From Amphibalanus amphitrite (taxonomy: Eukaryota > Arthropoda > Thecostraca > Balanomorpha > Balanidae), in assembly GCF_019059575.1 (NCBI RefSeq), contig NW_024882023.1, positions 372,001 to 436,000 of the forward strand: a stretch of 64,000 bases of DNA. Reading direction: 5' to 3'. Position numbers and translations under genes: made by a program. The first letter of the stretch is position 1; every line of letters starts with the position of its first letter. The notes beneath the pieces were generated by a model, which did not search any database, was not told the origin of the DNA, and saw only the letters and a list, made by a program, of their open reading frames with translations. Shown piece by piece: positions 10,181 through 61,001 of the stretch.

Positions 10181-13100
10181 ATGAGGACCTTACGGAATAG
10201 CTGTTCTTTTAATCTTGGTGTTCTGCTGTGTAGCATTTCAGCCATTGCACATAGTGATGTTTTGCAGCACTTGAAACACTGGAGACAGAGCCAACCACCG
10301 CCAGAGGATAAGTCTCCCAGCCCCAGACGCGACCGCGGAAAACACGGGTCAGCGGCTGGCTGCTACAATTTCGGCGCTAACCTGACTGCGTTTGTGTGCG
10401 AGCCGCGGCGGCGTCTGGCGGCGGCCATGTGTGACGAGTTCGAGTCGCTGGTACGCGACACGCTGCGCTGGCACCAGGACACGTACCGGCACTTCCCGCT
10501 GGACCCCAGCCGGGAGAACTCTGTCCGCTTCATGGTGCGCGGCGCGCTGTTCTCACGCGTGCGGCCCACGCCGTTCCGGTCGGCCGTGCGGCTGGCGGCC
10601 GCCTCGCCGGCCGCGCTGCGCCTGCTCGACCTGGGACCCGAGATCGGCGCCAACAGCCACTTTGTGGACATCGTGGCCGGTAACGACGCCGTGCCCGGGG
10701 TGCCGTCACTGGCGCACCGCTACGGCGGCCACCAGTTCGGCTTCTGGGCCGAGCAGCTGGGCGACGGGCGCGCCCACCTCATCGGAGAGTACACAAACAG
10801 GTGAGCGGGACACAAACAGGTGAGCGGGACACAAACAGATGGCGGGGACAGTGGACACAAACAGGTGGGCGTGCCCACCTCATCGGAGAGTACACAAACA
10901 GGTGAGCAGGACACAACAGGTGGCGGGGACACAAACAGTTGGGCGAGCCCACCTCATCGGGGAGTAAACAAACAGGTGAGCGGGACACAAACAGTTGGGC
11001 GCGCGCGCCCACCTCATCGGGAAGTACACAAACAGATAAGCGGGATACAAACAGGTGAGCGAGATACAAACAGGTGAGCATGGACACAAACAGGTGGGCG
11101 GGGACACACGCAGGTGGAGGGGTCATAAACAGGTGAGCGTCCAACAGCGAGGCCAAGGTGCACTCTACACACAGTGAGCGGAGACACAAACAGTTGCGCG
11201 CTCATCGGGGAATACACAACCAGGTGAGCGCTTATCGGGGAATACACAACCAGGTGAGCGACCATTGGAGGGCATGCAAACAGAGAAACGTCCATTCCTA
11301 GAGGAAACAAACAGGTGAACGGCCATCTATCGCTATGAACGGTACGCTCAGCATCAGAATAGAAATTCCCTTTCCCGTCCTGTGATAAGATGTGAAGAAT
11401 GAACCACGGAATATGTGGGAAATTTATACAGGTGCAGTTAACTCAATTTGATTTTAGAGAAGGTCATTCTAAGGTTGTCTCCCATCACTGCCGTTTCAGT
11501 GGTAGTAAATAATAAGTCCTTATTTGTGTTCCTGCGGGCCGTGTTGTGTGACAGTCCCAGAAGGGAGCCACTGTTCGTCAGCGGCGGCGCGCCGGGCTGA
11601 CGTGTGCCACGTCTGTTCTGCAGCGGCGGCGAGCGGTGGGAGCTGCAGCTGAAGGGCTCCGGCCGCACGCCCTACTCGCGCTACGGCGACGGCCGGGCCG
11701 TGGTGCGCTCCTCGGTGCGCGAGTTCCTCTGCTCAGAGGCCATGCACTACCTCGGTGAGTTGTCAGAGGTACCGCAGACCGGGGACCGGCGCGCAAAACT
11801 GCCAAGTCACGGAGACGCAGCGCTATCGGAGCGCCCGGTATTGCCTGAGGAAACTGCGGCTGGTGAATGGCCGCGCAGTCTTCTACTGCGGTCAGTTGCC
11901 GATTACTCACTTATCACATATTTTTACGTTACAGTCACGCACTTGTCTTGTATTACGCCAGTTATATGTTTGATCGTTCTCACCTCCGGCCTCCCGTTAA
12001 ATTATGTCCTTATATCTATTTCCATTTCTAGTCGCTGAACAATATCTGCATTTTTGCATTGCGATTTTATCTCTAACACTTGTTCACCGAAAACGTAGGC
12101 GCGCTGTGTTTGAGCGACTCCCGTCCCTGCCACCGGGCGCGCTCTGCGGGCGCTGCTGACCGTCCCCGTGCCGTGCCCGGTCCGCCAGGGGTGCCCACCT
12201 CGCGCGCCGCCACGCTGGTTATCAGCGACGACCGCGTGGTGCGCGACGCCTTCTACGACGGCCGGCCGGTGGCCGAGCGGGCCGCCGTCGTGCTGCGCCT
12301 GGCGCCCTGCTGGTTCCGCTTCGGCTCGTTCGAGATGCTGGCCACGGACGGTGACACGGAGAATCTGCGCCTGCTGGCCGACTACGTGATCCAGCGGCAC
12401 TTTGGCGACATCGACCTGTCGGCGCCCGACTGCTACCTACAGCTGCTGCGCCGCGTGGCCGCCGATACCGGACGTCTAATCGCCCGCTGGCAGTGGTGCG
12501 GCTTCGCGCACGGCGTCATGAACACGGACAACATGAGCATCCTGTCAATCACCATCGACTACGGGCCGTTCGGCTTCCTGGACGCGTACGAGCCCGACTT
12601 TGTGCCCAACCACTCGGACGACATGGGCCGCTACTCGTACGGCAACCAGGAGCGCGTCGGCCGCTGGAACATCGAGAAGCTGGGCGCGGCTCTGCGGCCG
12701 CTGCTGCCCGCCGAGCAGGCCGGCCAGCTAGGCACCGCGCTGGACGCCTACACGGAGGCGTTCGCGGCCGAGTGGCGCGCCAAGTTCAGCGCGCGCCTCG
12801 GGCTGCCGGCCAGCGCCGAGGCTGAGCAGCTGGCGCGCCGGCTGCTGACGCTGATGGAGCGTACCGGCGCCGACTTCACCATGACGTTCCGCCAGCTGGG
12901 CGACGTGACGCAGGAGCAGCTCAAGGACGGCCAGCTGCCGGACGACATGTGGGCGCTCCGGACGGCGGCGGAAACGCCCGGCTGGAAGGAGTGGGCCGCC
13001 GAGTACGCGGCGCAGCTGCACGCGGACGGCGTCGGCGAGGAGCAGCGCCGGCAGCAGCAGCGCGCCGCCAACCCGCGCTACGTGCTGCGCAACTGGATGG

Positions 13101-13267
13101 CGCAGCGGGCCATCGCTGACGCCGAGAAGGGCGAGTTCGCCGAGCTGCAGACGCTGCTGGCAGTGCTGGAGCGGCCGTTCGACGAGCAGCCCGACGCCGA
13201 GGAGCGCGGCTTCGCCGGCCGGCCGCCCGACTGGGCTGCGCGCCTCATGGTCAGCTGCTCCAGCTGA
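10181..13267 (+). CDS. SelO: SelO-family protein adenylyltransferase, Cys form
   Basis: Pseudokinase-fold enzyme; characterised SelO proteins transfer AMP from ATP to protein hydroxyl groups and are mitochondrial. Exons are 10181-10800, 11624-11754 and 12189-13267, with consistent phases (2, then 1), giving 609 residues. Recognisable blocks are [46 protein letters not shown] (putative nucleotide-binding Lys217), [29 protein letters not shown] with Asn362 and Asp364, [10 protein letters not shown], and near the C-terminus [15 protein letters not shown]. The tail ends VSCSS: Cys607 is antepenultimate, exactly where vertebrate SelO has selenocysteine (TUSS). The ATG at 10181 is the first after an in-frame stop at 10148. 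The Arg-containing, weakly hydrophobic N-terminus could be a mitochondrial presequence. Coding GC is very high. The exon 1 donor is re-copied about twenty times downstream. Confidence 0.93.
10793..11330 (+). repeat. Tandem array seeded on the SelO exon 1 donor
   Basis: The exon ends with tacacaaacag followed by gtgagc. About twenty downstream units repeat acaaacag followed by gtgagc, gtgggc, gttggg or decayed forms, at 19-40 bp spacing. Longer units also carry the preceding exonic word gcccacctcatcgg (about 10871, 10946 and 11010). The array therefore contains many intact-looking 5' splice sites inside SelO intron 1. Confidence 0.9.
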
Positions 13268-59500: not shown

Positions 59501-61001
59501 AAACTCTCAGCGGAAGTGGAGGGCAGGTTGGAGTTCGGGTCACCCCGATGGTGCAAATGATTGTGCCATTCTGGGCTGGGACGCCAAATTCGCCAATGCT
59601 AGCCAAGTTCGGAGATAGGGTGCCATACGTTTGCGCAAAACTCCGCGATTTTGGGAGCCAGCGCTGGGGAGCAGGAAGTCAGCGGCTGTGGGCGTGCCGC
59701 CAATCTGGAGCTGTACTGGTATTGGGCGTTAGCTCGAGTTACTTTGTTGTGATTGCCTTCACGGGGAGGCACCGTGTCCAGAACGAGCGAAACGTGACGT
59801 GACATCATAGATATCGGTTAGCGCTACGTCGTATATCGGCTGCAGTGAAGGCGTCAGGGATTCCCCTCTATCAGAGAAGCTCGCGGCTTCCTGTCCCAGC
59901 GTGATAGCCTGCTGTTAGTCATGGGGGCCTCCGCCTGCTGACTTCATCGACCAGAGCGCTATTGCTCATACGAGCACATCCTTTCGCTGAGCGGTCCTAC
60001 GTGCTCTTCGAACGGGTCACAGACAACGGAGAGTCTCCACTATGAGACCATTGGAGCTACGTATCGGTATATCATGGCACGGTGTGCCCGCCACGTGGTT
60101 ATGGCTCTGGTAGCTGCTCCGAGATTCGAACAGTGCCACCAGACCCCCGAACGTCTCTGCAATGTCGGTGATTCGATATGACCCGGATTGTGGCTGCCTT
60201 TCAGCATCAATTGCTGGCAGTCTGGAGTCCTTCAATATGGATTTAACTCGCAGTCTGAAACAGGCGACCTTTGATCACATTATGCTGATTGATGATGCCA
60301 TTTTTATATTCGTACTTTGAAAGTTCAGTGATGCTTTTTATTGATTTTGTCGTCGTGTGTCATGACCTGCGTCATACCATGTCGCTCAAATATTGTCGTC
60401 CCTGGGTTTCATCTAAACCTGTCCCGCCTTCCCTCAGACTGATCTCTGCCCGGTCTCCTGTCTCCTCCCCCAAACTGACCCCTGCCTGGTCAGGGAGACC
60501 CCTTCCAGGTCACTTTCCCACACACTGACCTCTGCCTGGTCACTTCCCTACATTATGACCCCTGCTTGGTCAGAGGAACTTCTTCTCAGTTCCCGTTCTC
60601 CTCCCCCAAACTGACCCCTGCCTGGTCAGACTGACCTCACCCCGGCCACCTCCCCACACACTGACCCCTCCCCGGTCACCTCCCCACACACTGACCCTGC
60701 CCCGCCTCCCGCAGGCTGACGCTGCTGACGGGCGAGGCATGCGCCGAGTGGCAGCGTGACCTGGCGATACTGACCCCCACTCCTCCTCCCCCTCAGGCTG
60801 ACGCTGCCGACGGGCGAGGCGTGCGCCGAGTGGCAACGTGACCTGGCGGCCGGGCTGGCGCCTCCCGAGCGGCTCTCGGCCAGCTTCAGCCACGCGTTCC
60901 ACGCCTGGTGTCGCGAGGAGGGCGCTGACGAACTGCACCAGACGCTGACGGCGGCCGCTGTGAGGCCCGCCGGCGCCGAGCTGGCCACCTACAAGGCGGA
61001 G
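53572..61001 (+). CDS. Myotubularin-related protein, MTMR3/4 type, 5' part
   Basis: Myotubularins of this branch bind or dephosphorylate PI3P and PI(3,5)P2 on endosomal membranes. Coding exons 53572-54101 (phase 2 end) and 60797-61001 (phase 0 end) join cleanly; the gene continues beyond the window. After an acidic start and a Pro-rich run at about residues 27-52, a PH-GRAM domain begins near residue 105: LLHGEYVVRAGRVVEGRLYL, NYRLYLQ, LLNVPLGLLETAETRDI and LHVQCKDARAFR. Exon 2 adds EACAEWQRDLAAGL and FSHAFHAWCREEGADE, matching the MTMR3/4 segment with FAYHAWC before the phosphatase domain. The catalytic CX5R region lies outside, so activity cannot be judged. The acceptor before ATG (tcccgcag) shows that a 5' UTR exon precedes. 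The start of exon 2 is duplicated upstream at 60715. Confidence 0.8.
53655..53730 (+). repeat. CCG-type trinucleotide run coding polyproline in MTMR
   Basis: An imperfect (CCG/CCA/CCT)n run within the first coding exon encodes about 25 nearly continuous prolines. Such runs change length easily. Confidence 0.85.
56430..56690 (+). repeat. Minisatellite (gtcagctgagtgggcgtggc)
   Basis: Eight or so units of about 25-30 bp with GTCAGCTGAGTGGGCGTGGC-like words, ending in a G-run at about 56647-56660. Confidence 0.8.
57714..57870 (+). repeat. Two-copy tandem duplication, unit about 80 bp
   Basis: gtctgtctgccggcg, ggccgg, gacggcggaccggt and cggtgtcgcagct occur twice in the same order. Confidence 0.75.
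60430..60870 (+). repeat. Pyrimidine-rich array plus duplicated MTMR exon 2 acceptor
   Basis: From about 60430, units of ctgacccctgcctggtca with cctccccacacactgacc run up to the exon. Then cgcag is followed at 60715 by about 55 bases almost identical to the exon start (GCTGACGCTG.TGACGGGCGA), then catactgacccccactcctcc and the true acceptor cctcag with the exon at 60797. Period 82, not a multiple of three, so using the upstream acceptor would shift the frame. Confidence 0.88.

Follow-up and report, generated by a model that had tools for sequence, protein, structure and literature searches.

Tandem arrays that carry exon ends and splice signals at intron borders of four genes in a 64-kb barnacle window

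The window considered here is a stretch of 64,000 nucleotides from the barnacle Amphibalanus amphitrite (NW_024882023.1, positions 372,001 to 436,000), in which tandem arrays lie across exon/intron borders with the exon end and its splice signal inside many of the repeated units. Four multi-exon genes were modelled in it, SelO, a moonraker-like gene, Rab7 and an MTMR3/4-like gene, with 13 introns, 26 junctions and 16,995 intron bases together; these are the genes modelled in the window, and further ones may be present. As the exons of all four join into open frames, the gene models are independent of the arrays. SelO, Rab7 and the two MTMR exons each join in frame with no internal stop, and exons 1 and 3 of SelO match Pfam SelO. 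The nine modelled exons of the moonraker-like gene (21025 to 14056, minus strand; the minus-strand gene below) join into a single open frame encoding 653 residues, which Pfam MNR matches weakly (E = 1.5e-4, short of the curated threshold); the 5' end of the gene was not found in modelling. The fourth gene is one that we take to be of the MTMR3/4-like family, and its two exon pieces gave no Pfam match at E < 0.05.

Unit length over the junction arrays (Table 1) is about 19-82 nt. The most striking case is the acceptor of Rab7 exon 3, where every unit combines a branch-point-like motif (CTGAC in the unit farthest from the exon, CTAAC in the others) with a pyrimidine-rich tract, AG and 24 bases of coding sequence, which read MPAKRAQQ in that farthest unit and VPTKRAQQ in the rest, and where the four upstream units terminate in GT. 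The SelO exon 1 donor array takes in 36 exon bases. Irregular spacing and more degeneracy mark the arrays at donors 17736, 18924 and Rab7 exon 2. Two further arrays stop just short of an exon: one of 543 bp with a 20-nt period (19173-19715) ends 7 nt from the minus-strand exon that starts at 19165 and excludes the junction, and a GGACG pentanucleotide array (54111-54191) starts 10 nt past the end of MTMR exon 1 and contains none of its bases.

Table 1. Positions in the window of the arrays and of the modelled genes (a slash within a motif marks the exon/intron border; UTR, untranslated region; CDS, coding sequence)
Feature	Position	Strand	Remarks
SelO exon 1 donor array (10800/10801)	10765-11326	+	14 donor copies; core ACACAAACAG/GTGAGCGGG (ACACAAACAG/GTGAGC)
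SelO exon 2 acceptor (11623/11624) with upstream copy	11568-11637	+	copy at -42, 21/28
SelO stop codon/3'UTR array	13238-13335	+	3 copies
Donor 18924 array	18717-18937	-	degenerate; core GACAG/GTCAGT; weakest case
Donor 17736 array	17486-17743	-	period about 44
Donor 16957 repeat	16902-16970	-	two 33-nt units
Donor 15484 array	15318-15507	-	six 30-nt units, CAG/GTGAGT in every one
Rab7 exon 2 donor array (30693/30694)	30681-31029	+	degenerate; core CGCC/GTGAGTA
Rab7 exon 3 acceptor array (34385/34386)	34048-34409	+	five units
MTMR exon 2 acceptor (60796/60797) duplication	60708-60848	+	82 nt; 52 exon bases included
Intron-only array	60424-60697		
SelO gene	CDS exons 10427-10800, 11624-11754, 12189-13267	+	single open frame, 1584 nt
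Moonraker (MNR)-like gene, first 5 of 9 modelled exons	21025-20854, 19165-18924, 18350-18231, 17879-17736, 17163-16957	-	
Moonraker (MNR)-like gene, last 4 of 9 modelled exons	16260-15781, 15611-15484, 15162-14800, 14161-14056	-	
Rab7 gene, span 29932-34604	exons 29932-30131 (ATG at 29949), 30475-30693, 34386-34604	+	Pfam Ras on exons 2 and 3
MTMR3/4-like gene, part only	exons 53569-54101, 60797-61001	+	open frame across junction

The adjoining intron, to a maximum of 600 nt, was scanned at all 26 junctions with a probe of 28 bases, 14 from the exon and 14 from the intron. Matches were scored against 1000 dinucleotide shuffles per junction, and significance was set at a Benjamini-Hochberg q < 0.05. 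At this level nine junctions have a copy of the border close by: six donors (SelO exon 1 at 10800, the minus-strand gene at 18924, 17736, 16957 and 15484, and Rab7 exon 2 at 30693) and three acceptors (Rab7 exon 3 at 34385, MTMR exon 2 at 60796 and SelO exon 2). A first-pass annotation made from the sequence alone had named eight of these borders, and local copies were recovered at all eight (P = 0.001-0.010), the weakest being donor 18924 (18/28, P = 0.010); the ninth, the SelO exon 2 acceptor, has a lone copy. The positive junctions are spread over 7 of the 13 introns, and the claim that every intron-bearing gene is affected stands for all four modelled genes; 17 of the junctions and 6 of the introns gave nothing significant with this probe. 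Splice consensus alone does not account for the copies, since junction probes seldom match elsewhere, reaching at least 18/24 in 0.17% of 576 distal chunks of other introns. The copies preserve the AG/GT border itself. GT is kept in 25 of 30 donor copies, and AG in all four Rab7 acceptor copies and in the MTMR copy at -82; many copies, though not every one, thus retain their signal.

Because the introns are repeat-rich, junctions were also compared with intron positions. At a threshold of at least 18/28, the nine positive junctions exceed the 3.65 that intron positions as a whole would give (P = 0.0018), and the expectation falls to 1.62 when the control omits the junction-spanning arrays (the six called by self-BLAST, as below, and 16902-16970). 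Donors account for 6/13 against 1.74 expected (P = 0.0009), and remain in excess with 24-base probes, at 5/13 for a threshold of at least 18 (P = 0.002) and 3/13 for at least 20 (P = 0.048); acceptors reach P = 0.037 once the spanning arrays leave the control. Arrays were also called by self-BLAST (E < 0.01) in the gene bodies, giving 14, of which six cross a splice junction, one crosses the SelO stop codon and seven are intron-internal; none lies wholly inside an exon. This call missed the donor 16957 repeat and placed the 18924 array 18 nt into the intron. When the 13 intronic arrays were placed at random with 24, 36, 52 or 100 bases of exon overlap allowed, 0.62, 0.93, 1.29 or 2.1 were expected to span a junction, compared with the six observed (P < 5e-6 (0/200,000), 1.5e-5, 1.4e-4 and 0.003, respectively). 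Within this window, junctions are thus enriched over the remaining intron by both measures, as had been anticipated.

Several results weigh against giving borders a special role. The excess over all intron positions is moderate and is carried by donors: acceptors alone, in the 28-base comparison with all intron positions, gave 3/13 against 1.91 (P = 0.28), and with 24-base probes 3/13 at thresholds of 16-19/24 (P = 0.10-0.28; 0.15 at 18) and 1/13 at 20 or more (P = 0.75), none of them significant. At that strictest threshold donors and acceptors together gave 4/26 (P = 0.12), again not significant. Seven of the 13 intronic arrays cross no junction, and the P values are optimistic because the window was chosen after the pattern had been noticed in it. 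One explanation for the data is that these are ordinary intronic minisatellites of a repeat-rich, G+C-rich genome, some of which meet exons by chance, the introns being short. The junction-free arrays, the 2.1 spanning arrays expected when 100 exon bases of overlap are allowed and the outcome of the strictest position test would all fit this, as would the tandem repeats that occur beyond the modelled genes and those in coding sequence of low complexity (Tandem Repeats Finder, e.g. 13029-13063 and 53650-53727). However, a chance origin has to be set against six spanning arrays out of 13, with P from <5e-6 to 0.003 depending on the overlap, against nine positive junctions where 3.65 were expected, and against the retention of the AG/GT border in the copies, and we regard it as unlikely, if the strongest of the alternatives.

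We propose instead that the arrays are minisatellites of the type known in amphioxus as mirages, that is, short tandem duplications whose unit takes in the end of an exon together with its splice signal, and would give this reading a probability of roughly 0.7. The arrays suggest a simple course. A duplication of some 19-82 bp would happen to cross an exon/intron border, an event whose product can be read directly in the units; since these include exon bases, the first duplication took in the border, and the description of the repeats as born there was a fair one. The copy touching the exon would presumably retain the true splice site, and the extra copies, being intronic, would be removed with the intron. 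Further copying and exchange could then extend the array and partly homogenise it, as the mixture of varied and near-identical units suggests. Copies are seen to persist unpurged, many of them still usable in appearance, and splicing would have to tolerate them, as is reported for lancelet mirages. Since the junction next to the exon stays intact and the extras are confined to the intron, such a duplication can be tolerated, and the arrays are most likely tolerated duplications of this kind. The array at the SelO stop codon implies that the border can be other than a splice site. In a test of eight coding edges the SelO stop gave P = 0.006 and the stop of the minus-strand gene P = 0.026; the latter, like the Rab7 stop and the MTMR start, was placed one base out in this test, and none of these positions enters the splice-junction results. 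The logic of tolerance would extend to the SelO case, with copies landing in the 3'UTR, which suggests that the governing rule is the edge of constrained sequence and reaches beyond splice motifs. The preference for borders over deep intron may reflect a mutational tendency or better tolerance.

It had also been stated that units for the most part become more divergent with distance from the exon. Spearman correlation of copy identity with distance was calculated for the four arrays that have at least four copies, and a steady fall was found only in the Rab7 acceptor array (rho -0.95, n = 4, p = 0.051); the values were -0.30 for the SelO donor array (n = 14, p = 0.29), -0.11 for the Rab7 donor array (n = 5, p = 0.86) and +0.78 for the donor 15484 array (n = 5, p = 0.12). 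A gradient is therefore not a general property of these arrays. We note that the window represents one assembly and one haplotype only, as would suit an assembly artefact that multiplied junction segments; however, the copies vary in substitutions and spacing, are found in four genes, on plus and minus strands alike, and do not interrupt the coding frames, and an artefact is barely credible.

The 25 donor copies that keep GT, with one more at +27 of donor 18924 added by eye, make 26 downstream copies whose use in splicing can be predicted. An in-frame stop would be added by 23, and an open in-frame insert by three (donor 18924 at +27 and +63, donor 16957 at +33); for the 23, the exon-proximal donor is thus probably the productive one. 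As the copies have not been purged, that donor presumably wins as a rule. Unless a second splice followed, use of any of the four upstream Rab7 acceptors or of the MTMR acceptor copy would put the reading frame out; the copy at -42 of the SelO exon 2 acceptor would retain it, judged by length alone. Across the 13 introns, strong U1-complementary GT sites (at or below -10 kcal/mol) number 19 on the sense strand and 6 on the antisense strand. Another possibility is that selection maintains the arrays, the repeated splice sites regulating splicing as decoys, U1-binding platforms or alternative exons. The sense bias would favour this, as would the make-up of the Rab7 units, each an acceptor, a 24-nt in-frame coding piece and a GT. 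However, 17 of the 19 sense sites fall in three array-bearing introns, outside which there are two sense and five antisense sites; stops and frameshifts would follow from most of the copies if used as above; and the higher conservation of the sites within copies is biased by the copy-finding procedure. Selection thus appears somewhat less likely still than chance placement. As mini-exons, the Rab7 exon 3 units would each add eight residues (VPTKRAQQ) if spliced.

Mirages are tandem repeats that run across exon-intron boundaries of amphioxus genes on the 5' or 3' side (PMC3087553; PMC3902484). Their units are given as 10-72 bp in Adh3 and 150-160 bp in the globins BflGb6 and BflGb9, one globin gene has six units in one haplotype and three in another, and reverse-transcription PCR suggests regular splicing (PMC3087553). 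Others are described in TnC, and imperfect ones in PGBD5 (PMC3902484). As far as the available parts of these papers go, mirages share with the barnacle arrays the boundary-spanning unit, the occurrence on either side of the intron and the AG or GT in many copies, and the unit size here falls inside their range of about 10-160 bp. The barnacle arrays differ in occurring in all four modelled genes of one window, in including one array at a stop codon and in their host, apparently not a lancelet.

This placing of the host follows from the intronless open reading frame for triosephosphate isomerase (TPI; 6162-5422, minus strand). Against PDB, entries that we take to be those of beetle, shrimp, crab and nematode outscore those presumed to be of chicken and human. 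Together with the GC content of the window (54.7%), this ranking is weak evidence that the host is apparently an ecdysozoan and not a lancelet. Among the matches listed from open-licence papers, none described mirages under that name outside lancelets; the wording in PMC7710358 belongs to a reference title on another subject. The class is accordingly not new, and what the window adds is its density in what is apparently another animal group.

Tandem duplication of exon segments that contain AGGT is a proposed origin of introns, to which the first-pass annotation had linked the arrays; in its strong form the arrays would be the remains of the duplications that created these introns. The model is well described in other genes (PMC3443670; PMC4974935), and the barnacle arrays share with it the tandem duplication of AG/GT-containing segments (PMC3443670, in the part available), whereas the segment duplicated here crosses a junction that already existed. 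The model predicts that donor-flank sequence is repeated at the acceptor of the same intron, and among the 13 introns this was not found: donor and acceptor 48-mers shared on average 13.7 of 48 positions within an intron and 14.6 between different introns. The two arrays of Rab7 intron 2 also have unlike units. The arrays were therefore rejected as the source of these introns, a very unlikely reading, and the suggested link is not supported for them. A nearer comparison is potato RdRp, in which an intron was gained through a duplication that crossed the boundary (PMC4974935). The duplicated block there and, seemingly, the Rab7 units each comprise a branch site, a pyrimidine tract, a 3' splice site and the start of an exon; in potato there is one duplication with a well-supported new intron (PMC4974935), whereas Rab7 has a five-unit array known from sequence alone.

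Other reports resemble the barnacle arrays in part, going by the portions of them available. Variable internal tandem repeats occur in human segmental-duplication genes where exons meet introns, and a role in changing gene structure has been proposed for them, but the genes are recent paralogues and half of the repeats lie in coding sequence (PMC2812944). In Daphnia pulex, short direct repeats likewise connect exon ends and new introns; they measure 4-12 bp, however, and are read as footprints of break repair and not as minisatellite arrays (PMC4202315). Earthworm metallothionein repeats were considered as a parallel and set aside: they are intronic minisatellites, and junction spanning is not shown in the available part of the source (PMC12783039).

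A broader reading is possible but doubtful, namely that a non-chordate and apparently ecdysozoan genome is generally prone to mutate by duplication at exon borders, with about one-third of junctions affected, and that some arrays, such as that of Rab7 exon 3, are exons and introns in the making, occasionally used in splicing. Should the arrays prove as dense in the rest of the genome, this one animal would supply a very large number of junction duplications of differing age, in which it could be tested directly whether they contribute to new introns and alternative splice sites, and how the spliceosome chooses among near-identical neighbouring sites. It would also show whether the mirages of lancelets are an oddity of that lineage or a wider habit of animal genomes.

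Some further features of the window were noted. The C-terminus of SelO (13250-13267) reads VSCSS, and its cysteine presumably occupies the place of the selenocysteine of vertebrate SelO. Between TPI and SelO lies a degenerate 38-nt array (7861-8720; Tandem Repeats Finder rows 7881-7953 and 8073-8412) whose units bear CAG/GTCAG and GGTGAG motifs, with no adjoining exon recognised. Arrays of the CCGACGTCGG type (2469-2704 and 3382-3640) lie beside AAACATGCCGACGTCGG, which occurs three times (2469, 3382 and 3455). The window gave no match to RNA families at gathering thresholds, and no tRNAs were found in it. In each of two segments, 25269-28020 and 39455-39932, one end carries AAAGGGACCCTCCCACCTT and the opposite end a near reverse complement of it; the former contains a reverse-transcriptase open reading frame of 723 aa (25803-27974, minus strand; RVT_1), and the latter is short and has none. 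A second reverse-transcriptase open reading frame, of 417 aa (RVT_1), lies in 62055-63308 on the plus strand.

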